Origin: Hahella sp. KA22
Lineage (GTDB): Bacteria > Pseudomonadota > Gammaproteobacteria > Pseudomonadales > Oleiphilaceae
Direction: 5' to 3'
Assembly: GCF_004135205.1 (NCBI RefSeq)
Contig: NZ_CP035490.1
Location: 620,001-684,000 of the forward strand
DNA length: 64,000 nucleotides
Positions 55,618 to 63,264 of the stretch are shown in pieces. Position 1 is the first letter of the stretch. Each line of letters starts with the position of its first letter. The position numbers and the translations under genes are program-made. Under the pieces are notes generated by a model. It was not told the DNA's origin, did no database searches, and saw nothing but the letters and a program-made list of their open reading frames with translations.

Positions 55618-58600
55618 ATGCTTAAGAAATGCCTATCCTTTTTCTCATTATTGATATTGCTGCTGTCGCTGTCCGCCTGTGGCGGCTCTTCCAGCTCGAC
55701 GGACGACGCGCCGGCGACGGATGGCGGCGCGACGCCGACGGAACCGACAGACCCCACGGACCCAGGCTCGCCCACACCGGGCGGCGACTCTGGCGTCGCG
55801 CCTAAAGTCAGCGCCGGCGGCAATCAGTATGCCGACCCCAATGTCGTGCTGTCTCTCGCAGGAACGGCGGAAGCGCTGGAAGGCGCTGAAATCGTAAGCA
55901 CTACCTGGACCCAGGTGTCCGGACCGACGGTTTACTTGTCCACGCCTAACAGCCTGAGCAATATGATTCTGGCCCCTGACGTCACGAAAACCCAGACTTT
56001 GAGTTTTAAACTGACGGCGAAAGACACCAAGGGCAAAGAAAGTTCAGATATCGCCAGTATTGTAGTTGAGCCGCTCGCCAGCTTCGTGCGAGTGACTGGC
56101 TCCAGCGTTGATGAGGCGGCGGGACAGGCGACTTTGAAACTGATCCTGAACCGAGCCTCTAATGCGCCGGTGACGGTGCAATACATGACCCAGGATGGCG
56201 CCGCCACCAGTGGCGTGGATTATGTCGCCGCCTCCGGCTCGGTCACCTTTGAGCCTGGCGAAACTGAGAAGACGATCGCCATTGAAATCATTGATGACGA
56301 AGATGAAGAAGCGGACGAGCCCTTTACCGTTCGTATTACCGCAACGGAAAACGGCGTGGTCGCCTCAGCTGTGGGCACAGTGGTCATTCGTAATGGAATG
56401 GATACCGCGCCGGAATTAAAAGAGCAGAATATCGCCTTTGTCTCCGCTGGCCCATTGACCGGGTTGGTTGGCGGCAGCCTCACTAATCTGATCGATGAGG
56501 AGTCGGCGCCAGGCACGGGCTCCGTTTCTTATGCGACCGCTGACGAAAGTATCGCGACCGTGGATATTTCCTCCGGCGTGGTGCAACTTAAGTCCGCAGG
56601 CTCCACCGTGATTACCGCTGTTAAGGCGGCGGACTCCGAATACAAAGCCGCGCAGGCGACTTATACCGTTGTCGTTGAAAAGCGCCCTGGAGAGATCACT
56701 TTCGCGACTCCTGGGCCTTACGCCGTCGCCTATGAGGATACCTTCACCAATATCGCTACAGGCATTGGGTCTGGCGAAGTACGCTACGCTTCCAGCAATA
56801 CGTCCGTCGCCAGCGTCACCTCTGGCGGCGTTGTGACGATTGTGGGAGTAGGAAGCGCCGTCATTACCTCCACGCAGCTGGCGGATGACGTCTATCTGGA
56901 GGCGACCGCCACCTACGCAATCGAAGCGGACAGAAAAAACCTGAACCTGTCTTTCAAGGATGTTGGCCCTGTAGAGGGCGTCATTGGCGGAACCTATACC
57001 AACACCTTGTTGGGTAATAAAGGCTCTGGAGCGCTGAGCTATCTCAGCAACAATACCGAGGTCGCGACCGTGAACGCTGAGACGGGCCTTGTATCCTTCG
57101 TTGGCGAGGGCAATACGCATATTTCGGTAATCAGAGCGGATGACGACCTCTACAAAGCGTCCACGGCTACTTACTCTGTTTCGGTAGGTAGAAAAATCCA
57201 GAGCATTGCCTTTGTAAATCCCGGGCCAATGGAAGGCGTTTATGGGGAAACGGTTAGTAACCCCATCGCGGAAGGCGCTCCCGGCAGCGGCTCCGTAACT
57301 TACTCCTCCAGCAATACCTCTGTGGCGTCCGTTAATGTTGAAAGCGGCGTCGTACAACTCGTTGGCGCTGGCTCCGCTGTGATCACGGCGGAAAAGGCGG
57401 GCGATTCCGTCTACAGCAGCGCAATCGCCAAGTACACCCTGACCGTCAACAAGAAGGCGCAGACGCTCTCGTTAAGAAACCCCGGGCCTATTGAAACCAC
57501 TGTTGGCAGCATAGTGACCAATGGCGTTACTGTGGTTGAGGGCGGCTCCGGCGCATTGTCGTACAGCGCTGATGCAGAGACGGCGATTGAGCTGGATAGG
57601 GAAACCGGGGAAGTTCACGCCGTCAGCGTAGGTGAAGCCCGGATCACCATCACCAAAGCTGGCGACGCCAACTATAACGCGGCTTCCGTTAGCTATAAGG
57701 TTGTCGTTGGCAAAGGCGTGCAGAACATCGCCTTTACGACGCCAGGTCCTGTGGCGTCCATCTTTGGCGACACCTACACTAACGTCGTTACCGGCGAGGC
57801 CCCGGGATCTGGTGCGGTGACTTATGCTTCCAGCAACGAAAGCATTGCGACGATAAATAACGCTACAGGCGAAGTGACTATGGTCGGCGTCGGCAGTGTA
57901 GTGATTACCGCCACCAAGACGGCGGACGCCAACTATGAAAGCGCAGAAGCCAGCTACACCATCAATGTGGCGAAGAAGACGCCTGCCCTTACTTTTGGCA
58001 GCGCAGGTCCATTGAGCCTGACTATTGGGGAGACCCTGACCAATGTCGCTACCAGTACGTCTACCGGGGCGGTGACTTATAGCGTCGGCGATTCCGCCAT
58101 TGCGTCAGTTGATGCGGAAAGCGGGCTGGCGATGGCGCTGGGCGTTGGAAGCACTTCTATTATGGCGACACAGGCGGGGGATGCGAATCACAACGCCGCC
58201 AGCGCCAAATACTCGCTGAATGTCAGCAAGAAAACGCAAACCATCGCCTTCACGCAGCCAGGTCCTCTGGACGGCGTTTATGGGGGCACTTTGACCAACG
58301 TCATTAAAGACGGCGCGCCAGGAACCGGCGCTCTTCTCTACGCATCCAACAACACCAGCGTCGCGACGGTAAATAGTGAAACGGCTGTGGTGCAATTGGT
58401 AGGTGTTGGTACGGCGACGATCACCGCCACGAAGGAAGCGGACGCGACCTATGAAGCCGCCACCGCCAGCTATACGATTACCGTGGCTAAGAAGGACCAA
58501 GTTATTACGTTTGAAAACCCAGGGCCAATCTACACGATTGTTGGTGATGCGATAAATAACCCCGCTGGCACGGTCGAAGGGGGAGTGGGCGTAATTACCT

Positions 58601-59961
58601 ACAGCGTCGACAACGCTGATGTGGCCATAGCCGCCGCAGGTGATGGCGTATTCAACATCGTTGGGATTGGCGACGCTGTAGTAACCGCGACCAAGGCGGG
58701 AGATGCGAATCATAATCCTGTGTCGCTTGAATACAGAATTTCCGCCATAGAGACAGGCGTAGGCGCCGCTGCTTTTGTTGGCGCCACAGATACGCAGGTT
58801 CAGCTGACATACGGCGCCGACAGCTCAGTCAGCAGTCTGTCGCTTATCAGTTCGACTGATCCGGAGTGCGATATCGCCAATTACAGTCTGTGTGAAAATG
58901 GCGCTATGACGCTGATTAATAGCGATACCGTGACTGAAAGTGCGGCTTTGCTCGACAGAACCGCCTATTACTGGTTGTTGCATGGCGAAAGCAGTAGTTC
59001 GCCCGCCACCATTAAGCAAGGAATCGGCGATTCAGCGAGTGAAGTAACGACAGTTCGCGCCGCTCTTCCGCGTCGCTATGATCATCAGATTGTTGAGTTC
59101 AATGGGTCTCTGTGGATGATCGGTGGAATGGCGTTTGATGGTGAAGTCAGCATACCCAACCCTCAGGTTTGGAACTCCACCGATGGCGTGTTTTGGACCC
59201 GGAGAGCGATTATCGAATCAGATGGGATGAACAAGCACAAAACCGTTGTTTTCGATGGTAAGCTGTTTGTTTATAACGAAGGTGTGATTTGGTATTCCAC
59301 CGATGGGGTGGCTTGGAATAAACACTCCATTGCCCCTGCTTTTGGCCTTAGGGAGGCGCAAGGATTTGCAGTGTTTCAGGGCGCACTCTGGTCTATCGGC
59401 TATACTTCCGGGGATGACTTCCCCGTTATGTGGAGAAGCATCGATGGGCTTGAATGGATAAAACAAGGTGACATTGCAGGTGTGGGCCAGCGCAGCGACT
59501 ATCAGATGGCTGTGCATAATGATCAATTATGGCTAGTGCCAGATGCTGAAGGTAGCCCAACGCTGCAAAATGATGTGTGGGCCACTACCGACGGCGTTAC
59601 TTGGAAGCCAATCCTGGCGGAGGGCGAGGCGCCTTTCAGCGGCAGGAAAAACCACACTTTATTTGAACACGATGGCAAGCTCTGGATTATCGCCGGTAAT
59701 GGTTATGAGCTCGCCGTATTCAATGACATTTGGACATCCGTAGATGGTAAAACGTGGACGTCTATGGATGCTCCCGCCTTTGCTGCAAGACTTTCCCATC
59801 AGGCGGTAGTGTTCGGTGGGCAGTTATGGTTATTTGGCGGCAGACCAAGTCCAACGGAACTGGCTCCGCTTGGCGACACGTGGCGCTCAGCAGATGGAAA
59901 TAACTGGCGCAGATTAGTGAGAGCTAAATTCTCATTTCTAACAGAAACTACGCCTATGTAA
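55618..59961 (+). CDS. Giant lipoprotein with Calx-beta, nine Ig-like repeats and a Kelch-like tail
   Basis: A 1447-residue predicted lipoprotein: lipobox LSLSAC with Cys21, then a Ser/Thr/Pro linker. Residues of about 60-150 resemble a PKD/Ig-like domain. A Calx-beta domain follows at about 155-260 (GAATSGVDYVAASGSVTFEPGE). Nine tandem Big-like repeats of about 85 residues (about 268-1042) each begin with a strand of the IAFxxPGP type. The C-terminal 330 residues contain several WSTDGV / WRSIDG / WTSVDGKTW elements, characteristic of Kelch- or propeller-like repeats. It is likely exposed on the surface as an adhesin. It is translationally close to the barrel protein. Confidence 0.85.
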   Translation: MLKKCLSFFSLLILLLSLSACGGSSSSTDDAPATDGGATPTEPTDPTDPGSPTPGGDSGVAPKVSAGGNQYADPNVVLSLAGTAEALEGAEIVSTTWTQVSGPTVYLSTPNSLSNMILAPDVTKTQTLSFKLTAKDTKGKESSDIASIVVEPLASFVRVTGSSVDEAAGQATLKLILNRASNAPVTVQYMTQDGAATSGVDYVAASGSVTFEPGETEKTIAIEIIDDEDEEADEPFTVRITATENGVVASAVGTVVIRNGMDTAPELKEQNIAFVSAGPLTGLVGGSLTNLIDEESAPGTGSVSYATADESIATVDISSGVVQLKSAGSTVITAVKAADSEYKAAQATYTVVVEKRPGEITFATPGPYAVAYEDTFTNIATGIGSGEVRYASSNTSVASVTSGGVVTIVGVGSAVITSTQLADDVYLEATATYAIEADRKNLNLSFKDVGPVEGVIGGTYTNTLLGNKGSGALSYLSNNTEVATVNAETGLVSFVGEGNTHISVIRADDDLYKASTATYSVSVGRKIQSIAFVNPGPMEGVYGETVSNPIAEGAPGSGSVTYSSSNTSVASVNVESGVVQLVGAGSAVITAEKAGDSVYSSAIAKYTLTVNKKAQTLSLRNPGPIETTVGSIVTNGVTVVEGGSGALSYSADAETAIELDRETGEVHAVSVGEARITITKAGDANYNAASVSYKVVVGKGVQNIAFTTPGPVASIFGDTYTNVVTGEAPGSGAVTYASSNESIATINNATGEVTMVGVGSVVITATKTADANYESAEASYTINVAKKTPALTFGSAGPLSLTIGETLTNVATSTSTGAVTYSVGDSAIASVDAESGLAMALGVGSTSIMATQAGDANHNAASAKYSLNVSKKTQTIAFTQPGPLDGVYGGTLTNVIKDGAPGTGALLYASNNTSVATVNSETAVVQLVGVGTATITATKEADATYEAATASYTITVAKKDQVITFENPGPIYTIVGDAINNPAGTVEGGVGVITYSVDNADVAIAAAGDGVFNIVGIGDAVVTATKAGDANHNPVSLEYRISAIETGVGAAAFVGATDTQVQLTYGADSSVSSLSLISSTDPECDIANYSLCENGAMTLINSDTVTESAALLDRTAYYWLLHGESSSSPATIKQGIGDSASEVTTVRAALPRRYDHQIVEFNGSLWMIGGMAFDGEVSIPNPQVWNSTDGVFWTRRAIIESDGMNKHKTVVFDGKLFVYNEGVIWYSTDGVAWNKHSIAPAFGLREAQGFAVFQGALWSIGYTSGDDFPVMWRSIDGLEWIKQGDIAGVGQRSDYQMAVHNDQLWLVPDAEGSPTLQNDVWATTDGVTWKPILAEGEAPFSGRKNHTLFEHDGKLWIIAGNGYELAVFNDIWTSVDGKTWTSMDAPAFAARLSHQAVVFGGQLWLFGGRPSPTELAPLGDTWRSADGNNWRRLVRAKFSFLTETTPM
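56419..58745 (+). repeat. Nine tandem Ig-like repeat units within the lipoprotein gene
   Basis: Repeats of roughly 255 bases, each encoding a start like IAFxxPGPxxG, a central SNTSVATV-type strand and a GxAxITATKAxD ending. The units have diverged at DNA level but keep length and phase. Recombination between units could change copy number. Confidence 0.75.
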
Positions 59962-59983
59962 TCCAAAGGATTATCATTCTCTT

Positions 59984-60010
59984 AAAACGCCGGCCCTGCG
60001 CCGGCGTTTT
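59984..60010. terminator. Bidirectional terminator
   Basis: AAAACGCCGGC and GCCGGCGTTTT form a perfect stem with a five-base loop, giving T-runs on both strands. It serves the lipoprotein gene on the plus strand and the DUF2063-like gene (ending at 60014) on the minus strand. Confidence 0.85.
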
Positions 60011-60013
60011 CGT

Positions 60014-60757
60014 TTAAACCAACCTTAAGGCCCGCTCGGAGACCAACCTTTCCACCACACGAATTTTATGTGCGCCATTCTCTAACAGGCGATCAAGAGG
60101 CTGTGGCGCTGCGCATTGTTGTAGAACGTCTCTTTCCGTTGCGGTAGCGGCTCGCCAGTACTTTCTGACGCCGGGGGCCGTCAGTACTGGATGGCTTCCT
60201 TCGGCGGCAGGCAGAGGTTGGTTCAATATCAGGGCGCAGAGTAATTTTTCCGGCGCTGCGGGAAACTCGATTAATTGCGACATTGGCGCGATGACTATGG
60301 AAAAATTACGACAGCGATTACTGTTCGGCTCCATCGTGCTGACGGGGGAAAGTCGATATTCGTGAATCGCCTTCAGTGCGTTCTCGAACGTGGCCAGGGC
60401 CTGCAGCAGGGGATCCGCCGTATGCTCGCAGATGAAAGTTTTGAACGACATCGCCTCCGGTACAAAATAGAGTGAACGGCAGGGCGTCGCCCGCATATAT
60501 TCCTCCACCAGCGCTTGTAACTGTAAACGTTCCAGCAGACGTAAGGTCAGTGGCGCTGCGATTTGCAGCCTGGCTTTACGCCACCATTTCTGCACGTCGC
60601 AGGTTACCTGAAACCCTTTAGACAGACTGAGCTCTTGCAGCCAGGCGCGCTCCGCCTCATTTAAGTTCAGATGACTTAGATCGACCTCGCCCGAGCAAGC
60701 GGAAGTGTGGGAGTGAATCATCTCCACCATCGCAATTTGCAGATCATGTAACGGCAT
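60014..60757 (-). CDS. DUF2063-like (HvfC/BufC-type) MNIO partner protein
   Basis: A 247-residue protein encoded just after the DUF692 enzyme, with a 14-base overlap. The layout and features (N-terminal helical region with LHDLQIAMVEMIH, later ADPLLQALATFENAL) fit the DUF2063 family loosely; similarity is weaker than for the enzyme. Such partners bind the precursor peptide leader or core and are needed for modification in characterised MNIO systems. The role is therefore inferred mostly from position. It ends in a winged-helix-like C-terminal region. No membrane segment. Confidence 0.7.
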   Translation of the reverse strand: MPLHDLQIAMVEMIHSHTSACSGEVDLSHLNLNEAERAWLQELSLSKGFQVTCDVQKWWRKARLQIAAPLTLRLLERLQLQALVEEYMRATPCRSLYFVPEAMSFKTFICEHTADPLLQALATFENALKAIHEYRLSPVSTMEPNSNRCRNFSIVIAPMSQLIEFPAAPEKLLCALILNQPLPAAEGSHPVLTAPGVRKYWRAATATERDVLQQCAAPQPLDRLLENGAHKIRVVERLVSERALRLV

Positions 60758-61676
60758 AGCGGCGCTCCTCTTTTACTGGCTGGCGATGACGCAACCAGAT
60801 TTCCCGGGCTGTTTGCAGTTGTTGCTGAACGCCTCGCTCGCTGACGATATCCAGCGCCTGTTCCAGCAACTCATAGGTAATCGCGTGGGCGTTAGGCGCG
60901 CGCTGCAGCGTCCAGTCCAGCAACTCCCACACTGGCTGCGGCGTCTTGTCACTGTGTACGTCCAGTTGCAGGCCTTCATGGATAGCGCCGCCCGCTACGT
61001 GAATCTCGACCACCCGGCTCATGTCCAGACGACTTAATGCCTCATAGACATCAAACCCAAAGTTGATCGCGTTGCAGTAAAGGTTGTAGAGGTCCAGCAA
61101 GAGGCCGCAGGAAGTTCGCTCGGTGATGCGGTTAAGGAATTCAATCTCATCCATGCCTGCGTCATGGGGCATATTTGGCAGGTAATAGGTTGTGTTCTCC
61201 AATAGAAACGGGACCTGATAACGCTGCTGGATCGCCTCTATTCGCGGGCAGATGATGTTCAATGCTTCCTCCGTGAACGGCACGGGTAATTGCACGCCAG
61301 CATGCAGGTCGGCGCCGTCAGCGGTGCGTATTTGCAAAAATCCCAGGTGTTCGCTGTGCCAGTGAAATGGCTGCACGTCCGCAAAGTCATCCAGAATACG
61401 GATATAGTCCTGATTCCAACCGCTGGCGGAGCCTATCGACAGGCCGAGGCCATGCACGACTACGGGATACAGTCGACACCACTCGATGGCTGCGCTGAGC
61501 CGATCAGGGCTGAGGCCAGTGCGCCGTTGCGCGCCGTCCCAGTACTCCTGGCACAAAATGTCCGGACTGACTTCAATAAAGTCGATCACGTCCTCACAGC
61601 CGCGTAGAAGAGGAATAAACTCCGGCTGATAATTAATGCCGACGCCCAACTTGGGCAAGGAAGATAACGCGTTCAT
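60744..61676 (-). CDS. DUF692 family multinuclear non-heme iron oxidase (MNIO)
   Basis: A 310-residue TIM-barrel enzyme. Metal-site motifs of the family are present: His75 in VVHGLGLS, HWHSEHLGF (105-113), Glu160 in LLENTTYYL, DLYNLYCNA (Asp195, Asn198) and His226 in EIHVAGG. Characterised MNIOs modify Cys residues of small precursor peptides, forming oxazolone/thioamide, thiooxazole or related groups. The adjacent precursor with two Cys fits this role. The start follows the precursor gene by 64 bases, which contain a strong hairpin. Confidence 0.92.
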   Translation of the reverse strand: MNALSSLPKLGVGINYQPEFIPLLRGCEDVIDFIEVSPDILCQEYWDGAQRRTGLSPDRLSAAIEWCRLYPVVVHGLGLSIGSASGWNQDYIRILDDFADVQPFHWHSEHLGFLQIRTADGADLHAGVQLPVPFTEEALNIICPRIEAIQQRYQVPFLLENTTYYLPNMPHDAGMDEIEFLNRITERTSCGLLLDLYNLYCNAINFGFDVYEALSRLDMSRVVEIHVAGGAIHEGLQLDVHSDKTPQPVWELLDWTLQRAPNAHAITYELLEQALDIVSERGVQQQLQTAREIWLRHRQPVKEERRYAVT

Positions 61677-61701
61677 GGCAAAGGCTCCGGCTGTTGTCCC
61701 G

Positions 61702-61724
61702 CCGGTCCGGCAGCCCCGGACCGG
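61702..61724 (-). promoter_or_regulatory. Perfect hairpin between precursor and MNIO genes
   Basis: CCGGTCCGG and CCGGACCGG form a nine-base perfect stem around a five-base loop, between the precursor stop and the MNIO start. There is no U-tract. Such hairpins in peptide operons can give partial termination or protect the precursor mRNA, producing more precursor than enzyme. Confidence 0.6.
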
Positions 61725-61740
61725 TCGAAGTAATTGGCGC

Positions 61741-62103
61741 TTAACCGCCGTACAGAGTGACGTTGACGGGAATCTTGGACTGGATTTTTACAACAGGGTC
61801 CAATCCCAGACGCAGATCGAGACCGACCAGCCCGCAGGTAGGGCAGCCTGACTGGTTCAGAATCTGTTCCAGAATATTCTGCAAATCCCAGATGCTGACT
61901 TCGTACTGTGGATCGAATGAAGCGCTGACAGTTTTACGGTCACGGGATGCGCCACTGTCGTCCGCGGCGGAAGCGACGCTGGAAAAACTGGTGATAGAGG
62001 CTGCGCCAGTCACCAACGCGGCATTGCGAAGGAAGGTGCGGCGATCGCTTTCGCTGGCTTGTGAACGAGTGCTTGCAGGTACGTCGTTAGTTATGTCGGA
62101 CAT
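61741..62103 (-). CDS. Tat-exported precursor peptide with CPTC motif
   Basis: A 120-residue protein. A twin-arginine signal is visible: DRRTFLRN (RR at 21-22), a hydrophobic stretch and a cleavage site near SVASA-A. The mature part has only two cysteines, in GCPTCGLVGLD (Cys87, Cys90), and ends in NVTLYGG. Start is supported by AAGGAGA eight bases before ATG. It is the first gene of the three-gene unit with the MNIO and partner. I do not recognise the precursor family. Tat export implies that the peptide leaves the cytoplasm folded, or after cofactor loading or modification. Confidence 0.8.
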   Translation of the reverse strand: MSDITNDVPASTRSQASESDRRTFLRNAALVTGAASITSFSSVASAADDSGASRDRKTVSASFDPQYEVSIWDLQNILEQILNQSGCPTCGLVGLDLRLGLDPVVKIQSKIPVNVTLYGG

Positions 62104-62286
62104 CGTGTCTCTCCTTTGCGGTTGTGTTGTCTGGCGAGGACGGATGAAAAACGGAGCATCCCGTTTAACAACCCCTGAAGACAGAGCTTAAATCCAGAGA
62201 GATGACTGATCAGCGCAATGTGGCGCAAAGGAATTGTGAAATACTCACGTTTGAGGCGGGCGAGAGGAAGACAAGTTTGGCGTTAG

Positions 62287-62319
62287 GACCCGTTGACGTC
62301 GTCAACACGACAACGGGTC
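62287..62319. terminator. Hairpin between uridine kinase and precursor operon
   Basis: GACCCGTTG and CAACGGGTC pair exactly with a 15-base loop, with TTT following on the plus strand. It lies nine bases from the uridine kinase stop on the minus strand and probably ends that transcript. Confidence 0.55.
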
Positions 62320-62327
62320 TTTGAAAA

Positions 62328-62954
62328 TCAAGCGAGTAGTTGCTTGATGCGGGCTTTCAGCATCTCGATGGCGACGCGGTTTTTGCCGCCTTTGGGGACG
62401 ATGATGTCAGCGTATTGTTTGGTGGGTTCTACAAACTCAAGAAACATAGGGCGGACAGTGGATTTGTACTGTTTGATGACCGACTCCATGGTTCTGCCGC
62501 GCTCTTCTATATCACGCTGCAGACGCCTCAGCAGGCAGATATCCAGGGGCGTGTCGACAAAAATACTGGTGTCCAGGCGACTGCGGATATTTTTATCCGA
62601 CAGCAGCAGAATGCCTTCAATGATGATGACCCGACGCGGCTCCATGGATATCGAATCTTTAGCCCGGTTGTGCTCTTTGTAGTCATAGACCGGCACGTCA
62701 ATGGCGCGCTTTTCCTTGAGTTGGTCCATGTGGCGGACCAACAGACCGTGGTCAAAGGCGGATGGATGATCGTAATTGGTCTTCAGCCTTTCCTCCATGG
62801 AAAGGTGAGTTTGATCCTTGTAGTAAGAGTCTTCTTTGATAATGCCGATGTGGTGGGCGCCGACTTCTTCTTTCAGTTCGTCATAGATAGTGACGGATAA
62901 AAGGCTCTTGCCGGATGCAGAGGCTCCGGTGATGCCAATAAAAATGGGAGACAT
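62328..62954 (-). CDS. Uridine kinase family protein
   Basis: Phosphorylates uridine and cytidine in pyrimidine salvage. The 208-residue protein has a P-loop [24 protein letters not shown] with the DSYY motif, [13 protein letters not shown] and [10 protein letters not shown], all typical of uridine kinases. The start is ATG at 62954; family members begin in this way with the P-loop near residue 8. The family includes related phosphoribulokinase-like enzymes, but the motifs favour uridine kinase. Confidence 0.93.
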
Positions 62955-63264
62955 GCAGGAAATATCCAAATGTGGTCAGACCCGCCTAGTTTAATGCCTT
63001 GCTCCTGAACTGTCATGAACAGGGTCAATATTCCTGCCAGATTCCTTGTAAGCGGCATAGGGTTCGCCCCAGGTTATAGCCTGTCGTTTTAACGTGTAAA
63101 TTAAGCGTTGCAGAGATAAGTTATATAAAAAACAATGTGATATGCCAGATCTGGTGTCCTTTAGAGACTGCGTTCCAGCAGTCCGTCACAACACGTTCAT
63201 CTCTGCGGACCTATGGCGAAGGCTTTAATTCGCTAAGCAATTATCAAGGAAATATGGAGTTTAT
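62955..63264. other. AT-rich intergenic region upstream of the lyase-like gene
   Basis: 310 bases with no supported gene. It is markedly AT-rich around 63120-63145. GGAG at 63256-63259 is the ribosome site for the downstream gene. Confidence 0.4.

Follow-up and report, generated by a model that had tools for sequence, protein, structure and literature searches.

A predicted, conserved twin-arginine signal on the putative substrate of an MNIO operon in Hahella sp. KA22

Introduction

How MNIO substrates that carry a Sec signal avoid being exported before they are modified is a question raised by Antoine et al. (PMC12452194), in whose account most signal-bearing MNIO substrates use Sec. In the same account, precursors with a Sec signal pair with type-1 partner proteins and precursors without a signal pair with type-2 partners (PMC12452194). 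A three-gene locus of Hahella sp. KA22 raises the question of whether export by another route, the twin-arginine (Tat) system, belongs in this picture. The locus lies in a 64,000-nucleotide stretch of DNA, here called the window, taken from a genome that consists of one contig of 6.96 Mb. An initial annotation had proposed that it encodes a DUF692 (MNIO) enzyme with intact metal motifs, an overlapping DUF2063-like partner, and a 120-residue precursor with a twin-arginine signal and one CPTC motif. Here we follow up that proposal by comparing the three genes with their homologues and with the described MNIO systems.

Results and Discussion

Organization of the locus

The three genes are all present as proposed, in the order precursor, MNIO, partner on the minus strand (Table 1); the precursor and MNIO genes are 64 nt apart, and the first 14 nt of the partner gene lie within the MNIO gene, so that the overlap noted in the initial annotation holds, as do the signal and the single CPTC motif of the precursor. 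The upstream neighbor of the precursor gene (62328-62969) is one that we take to encode a uridine-kinase-like protein, and on the other side the unit is bounded by a large gene on the opposite strand (55618-59961, plus). Its ORF, of 1447 residues, is lipoprotein-like; it combines four Big_2 stretches with one Calx-beta and one PKD domain, and its C-terminal part is Kelch-like. No match to a sigma-70-type promoter was found within 59900-62400, which we count against the explanation preferred below.

Table 1. Features of the three-gene unit, in window coordinates
Feature	Position	Strand	Basis
Likely ribosome-binding site of the precursor gene (AAAGGAGA)	62110-62117	-	Sequence read directly
Precursor gene (putative MNIO substrate), 120 aa	61741-62103	-	ORF; homologues adjoin MNIO genes in 9/9 loci
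Twin-arginine signal, residues 1-46, predicted cut after ASA	61966-62103	-	TIGR01409 17.6 bits; invariant R21 R22 F24 L25 R26 N27 A44 A46
Codons of R21-R22	62038-62043	-	Sequence; invariant 9/9
Predicted exported domain, residues 47-120 + stop	61741-61965	-	Purifying selection within Hahella; alignment
GCPTCGLVG motif, residues 86-94, likely modification site	61822-61848	-	G86 C87 C90 G91 G94 invariant 9/9
MNIO (DUF692) enzyme gene, 310 aa	60744-61676	-	PF05114 196.1 bits
Partner gene, 247 aa, PME-type 2-like	60014-60757	-	Sub-threshold DUF2063 + HvfC; homologues 3' of MNIO in 9/9 loci

The genome has three MNIO genes. For the second, the accompanying precursor matches BufA2 (90.6 bits, cut-off 60) and the accompanying partner DUF2063 (81.1 bits); for the third, the precursor matches DUF2282 (83.9 bits) and the partner again DUF2063 (74.9 bits). 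Both enzymes exceed the BufB cut-off of 310 (381.2 and 358.5 bits), and these two loci are bufferin operons of known kinds, Buf2- and Buf1-type.

Distribution and gene order

Homologues of the whole unit are evident at nine loci, the window included, and at every one of them the order is precursor, MNIO, partner, with the precursor gene directly upstream of the MNIO gene. Four of the loci belong to Hahella (the window, L014, L007 and L016) and five to a second genus (L013 and L040-L043), which is probably Cellvibrio, since the partner at L040 has 215 residues, the length reported for the type-2 partner example of Cellvibrio sp. KY-GH-1 (PMC12452194). The precursor occurs in four of seven Hahella genomes, its own included. 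The wider search sets overlap, and those for the order, class and phylum are samples: 390 genomes of the order gave the own genome, one true match (G311) and one false; 369 of the class gave the own genome and three matches to the Tat signal only; 144 genomes of the family of G311 gave five true matches, all in one genus, and one false; and 398 of the phylum gave the own genome and two false matches. Within the sets searched, true homologues are found in only two genera, of different families, and we count the small size of the family against the preferred explanation.

The matches set aside were a stretch inside a 388-residue peptidase-like frame (G350, L006), three proteins that match by their Tat signal only (G526, G618 and G658), a matched stretch without cysteine (G792), a 26-residue piece containing a stop (G1089), and a pentapeptide-repeat protein for which the 3.1 kb of surrounding sequence contain no MNIO (G962). 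No precursor homologue apart from an MNIO gene was found in the overlapping sets of 7, 390, 369, 144 and 398 genomes. The expectation that precursors with a Tat signal and a CxxC motif recur beside DUF692 genes is thus borne out at all nine loci inspected, and the opposite case, homologues widespread without DUF692 genes, was not encountered in any of the five sets, where the leftover matches were Tat-only or unrelated. Plasmid records gave no precursor match; for the MNIO, 353 records gave matches, all below 60% identity and at about 29-35% among the 20 matches listed.

A search with the MNIO in 332 genomes of the order returned, after the two genera, two genomes of a further genus, g104 (306 and 305 bits), and then a drop to 142.5 bits; among 329 genomes of the phylum, the own genome alone passed E 1e-42. 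Of the six other Hahella genomes, half contain three MNIO genes; the remaining three contain a single one, and these are the genomes without the cluster. In G002 and G003, which have no cluster, the DNA up to 1.5 kb from the udk homologue contains neither a precursor nor an MNIO gene, which fits gain and loss of the cluster alike; in G005 udk was not matched. The g104 genomes hold a related MNIO-partner pair (L079:3346-4916 and L080:3623-5193) with no recognisable precursor adjoining it, so this type of MNIO may act there on a distant substrate. In a different arrangement (L081, L082 and L084), an MNIO gene directly follows a gene for a large protein (725-756 residues) and precedes a partner gene, and no small precursor was seen between the first two.

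The MNIO enzyme and its partner

The window MNIO matches PF05114 over residues 11-293 of 310 (E 8.3e-58, 196.1 bits, cut-off 25), which leaves no space for the C-terminal domain of ChrH. It is 98% identical to the MNIO of Hahella sp. HN01, the closest named record, and 27-28% identical to the BufB proteins of its own genome. All NCBIfam MNIO equivalogs score it under their cut-offs: BufB, the best model, gives 155.7 bits (cut-off 310), HvfB 152.3 (360), ApyH 111 (400), ChrH 82.7 (600) and MbnB 29.5 (325). A search of solved structures with the MNIO profile matches 3bww, 8hci and 7dz9, and the alignment with 8hci has the stretch HxAGGxxHxGLxxDxH in common.

The candidate metal motifs are intact, as the initial annotation had it: an alignment with the two bufferin-type MNIOs of the genome and one MNIO of another genome, in which ligands were assigned by motif, finds the candidate positions H75, H110, E160, N161, D195, N198, H226, D239, H241 and E272 kept. 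By our motif-based mapping, D239 and H241 would correspond to D242 and H244 of HvfB, whose replacement gives inactive HvfB (PMC13419390). The g104 MNIO has N and R at the positions of D239 and H241, and because these are replaced it may be inactive.

The partner scores 16 bits against DUF2063 (cut-off 27.2) and 19.8 bits against HvfC (cut-off 142) and is hence only DUF2063-like; at E <= 0.1, HvfC matches five of the nine partners and DUF2063 four, with a best E of 0.014. PME-type 2 partners are described as lying below the DUF2063 signature and as being defined by structural likeness (PMC12452194), and the sub-threshold DUF2063 score would place the window protein as PME-type 2-like. A PDB sequence search with the partner returned nothing meaningful (best E 0.3), and its AlphaFold model, built on an alignment of two near-identical rows, has a pLDDT of 39. 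The partners of the second genus vary C-terminally; those at L041 and L042 are short, with 210 and 203 residues, and that at L043 has an unusual Cys/Asn-rich tail. At three of the five loci of this genus the partner gene is followed by one for an exported protein that is conserved among them and has about 296-333 residues (L041:1738-2628, L042:6748-7638 and L043:4046-5047); these proteins look solute-binding-like by eye, and the one that was scanned had no Pfam match at E 0.01.

A predicted twin-arginine signal on the precursor

The only notable family matches of the window precursor are to Tat models; the bufferin precursor models (BufA1/DUF2282 and BufA2) do not match it. Its TIGR01409 score of 17.6 bits, against a cut-off of 16.7, is marginal when taken alone. 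The cut-off is also passed at L040 (19.2 bits), L043 (19.2), L007 (17.2) and L014 (16.9), making five of the nine precursors; the other four lie under this curated cut-off, which counts against a Tat reading, with 16.6 bits at L042, 16.2 at L041, 15.3 at L013 and no listing at E <= 0.05 for L016. At E <= 0.1 all nine match. Because single scores are marginal, the assignment rests on invariance in two diverged lineages and on layout: RRxFLRN and AxA are kept in all nine precursors, and the order is that of a Tat signal, in which RRxFLRN, preceded by an extension of some 18-22 residues at the N terminus, is followed by a weakly hydrophobic stretch and AxA. The peak hydropathy of the nine signals is 1.25-1.71, as compared to 1.92 and 2.25 in the two Sec-type bufferin signals of the genome, and a TatC gene is present in each of the nine genomes bearing the cluster. 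These features point to a conserved Tat-type signal and suggest Tat as the export route.

A probable conserved domain around a CxxC motif

C87 and C90 are the only cysteines of the window precursor. Besides the signal residues given in Table 1, the positions D73, Q80, G86, C87, C90, G91, G94, D96, L97, P103 and V104 are invariant in all nine precursors, which share GCxxCGxxGxDL; the proline of the motif is absent in the second genus (CLNC, CLAC and CLTC), whose precursors have one extra cysteine directly past the cut site. The precursors of Hahella and of the second genus are only 30-36% identical. Residues 48-120 are under strong purifying selection within Hahella, with 10-27 synonymous and 0-2 non-synonymous codon differences per pair; over residues 1-47 the figures are 4-13 synonymous and 1-10 non-synonymous. 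Since both signal and motif are kept between lineages this far apart, and non-synonymous changes are few, their conservation exceeds what chance would give.

The initial annotation had placed a likely core in the C-terminal half of the precursor. The motif there is indeed conserved, but the proposed 22-residue limit does not stand, as conservation extends before and after the motif, to P103-V104; the putative substrate therefore looks like a small domain and not like a short core peptide. A PDB sequence search with the exported part returned nothing meaningful (best E 0.27). AlphaFold, working from two near-identical alignment rows, gives strand-helix-strand-strand with a mean pLDDT of only 54; a folded state of this part is accordingly only presumed, which we count against the preferred explanation.

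Relation to described MNIO systems

Antoine et al. (2025, PMC12452194) describe adjamnio-2, represented by Hahella sp. KA22 WP_127967852.1 and adjoining MNIO sequence cluster 2, as precursors with Cys motifs, without a predicted Sec signal and with PME-type 2 partners. The window family is very probably adjamnio-2, since this is the only MNIO locus of the genome that fits, the other two being bufferin-type; we infer from this that the accession and the window gene are the same. The two agree in being a Hahella precursor that adjoins an MNIO gene and has a Cys motif and no Sec signal, the absence of a Sec signal in the window precursor being judged from its Tat layout. SignalP 6 is able to predict Tat signals. 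Because it is the program that Antoine et al. used (PMC12452194), the Tat signal may have been noticed but left unreported. The difference is that the window precursor has a Tat signal, whereas adjamnio-2 is described as lacking a Sec signal and Tat goes unmentioned, the words 'Tat' and 'twin' being absent from the main text of that paper (PMC12452194). The combination of a Tat signal with a type-2-like partner departs from the pairing reported there.

Among other systems, the bufferins (BufA1/BufA2, BufB and BufC) share with the window locus the order precursor, MNIO, partner and an export signal on the precursor; unlike it, they have Sec signals, DUF2063 type-1 partners and many cysteines. 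TglH acts on a carrier peptide without a signal, at its C-terminal cysteine, whereas the cysteines of the window precursor are internal and that precursor has a signal. TglH/TglI, of the 3-thiaglutamate system, joins an MNIO with a type-2 partner (PMC12452194), as the window locus does with a type-2-like one, and the similarity extends to the stretch HxAGGxxHxGLxxDxH in the alignment with 8hci. In the open-access literature we found no relevant paper that joins DUF692, MNIO (or the 'non-heme' spelling) or a RiPP precursor with a Tat signal, a single moss paper being unrelated, and no Tat was found in PMC12636315 either. The novelty implied by the initial annotation is therefore to be divided: the family itself has very probably been published already, as adjamnio-2 (PMC12452194), and what looks new is that a putative MNIO substrate carries a conserved Tat signal.

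A proposed pathway and its alternatives

We propose, with a probability of about 0.6, that the product of the operon is a small protein that is modified and exported, the MNIO and its type-2-like partner oxidising GCxxCG before export by Tat. In the cytoplasm, the MNIO together with the partner would oxidise one or both cysteines of the motif; the modified precursor would then fold and leave through the Tat pore by virtue of its twin-arginine signal, and after cleavage behind ASA a modified domain of 74 residues would remain in the periplasm. Tat carries folded proteins, and for this reason the route itself could delay export until modification is complete; export in a folded state, with or without metal, would follow from this known behavior. 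That the precursor is the MNIO substrate and the CxxC motif the modified site is suggested by gene position and conservation. Our first guess at the mass change at CxxC is about -4 Da, and that the periplasmic CxxC protein does metal or redox work is a plain guess. The copper-handling role suggested in the initial annotation is unsupported: no metal-specific feature was seen next to the operon, and bufferins are encoded in this genome by two operons of their own.

Two kinds of chemistry, which subdivide this reading and are not additional to it, may be considered; both predict -4 Da, so mass alone cannot tell them apart. In the one, CxxCG would become a thioether macrocycle with a hydantoin within the exported domain, through an MNIO outside the ChrH clade that works with a separate partner. 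ChrH-type MNIOs produce -4 Da at CPxCGxG, an embedded site included, and lipoprotein export is shown as well; the substrates comprise ArlA, with an embedded CPACGMMM (-4 Da), and others of more than 30 kDa; a helper domain, MelHc, is encoded by a gene of its own; and DybA shows -4 Da and a Cys crosslink (Chen et al. 2025, PMC12636315). The ChrH subfamily (chryseobasin, DybA/DybH) resembles the window locus in its two-cysteine CPxCG near a glycine, in signal-bearing precursors that are modified before export and in admitting proteins as substrates (PMC10214503, PMC12636315), and the ChrH model gives the window MNIO 82.7 bits as compared to 48.4 and 53.4 for the bufferin MNIOs of the genome. This score is nonetheless far under the cut-off and under the BufB score of the same enzyme, the ChrH C-terminal domain is absent and the partner separate, the signal is Tat where ChrH-type substrates have SPI/SPII signals, and the motif is internal and reads CxxCGxxG, with one residue more between the glycines in the window (CPTCGLVG) and no proline in the second genus (CLxCGxxG), so that we regard this chemistry as possible but doubtful. 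In the other, likewise doubtful though possible, a motif cysteine would become a thiooxazole (-4 Da per site) able to bind copper on a Tat-exported carrier. BufB is the top NCBIfam model, and the glycine after the second cysteine recalls the EGKCG sites, where -4 Da per motif was found (PMC12636315). Against this, the enzyme reaches only half the BufB cut-off, which the true BufB proteins of the genome exceed, none of the bufferin models matches the precursor, the partner does not belong to type 1, and no copper-specific feature was seen in the operon. A more elaborate version of the pathway, which we think unlikely, has the whole small protein modified and exported folded, with the folding that Tat requires ensuring that modification comes before export, and a non-ChrH-clade MNIO making a ChrH-like Cys-Cys crosslink and heterocycle in a folded domain.

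Conserved leaders are found in many RiPP precursors, and the twin-arginine stretch could be a recognition leader only, its product staying cytoplasmic or being exported otherwise. The marginal Tat scores of four of the nine precursors would fit this, as would the preliminary evidence that the bufferin signal peptide may double as a recognition sequence (PMC12452194); since the entire Tat layout is kept, from the extension through RRxFLRN and the weakly hydrophobic stretch to AxA, we judge a pure leader to be improbable. Still less probable is that the small protein is a Tat-exported CxxC partner of the MNIO product, with the true substrate encoded elsewhere: the g104 pair, which has no adjoining precursor, speaks for it, although that MNIO may be inactive, and at all nine loci the precursor gene stands directly upstream of the MNIO gene, the usual position of a substrate, with its cysteines invariant.

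Implications

Under the proposed pathway, a Tat-borne MNIO substrate would offer a simple, built-in answer to the problem of premature export. Another kind of signal, occurring beside a type-2-like partner, would amend the pairing reported so far, in which Sec signals go with type-1 partners and the lack of a signal with type-2 partners. Modification of the CxxCG motif, if it takes place, would add an internal, protein-embedded site to MNIO chemistry.
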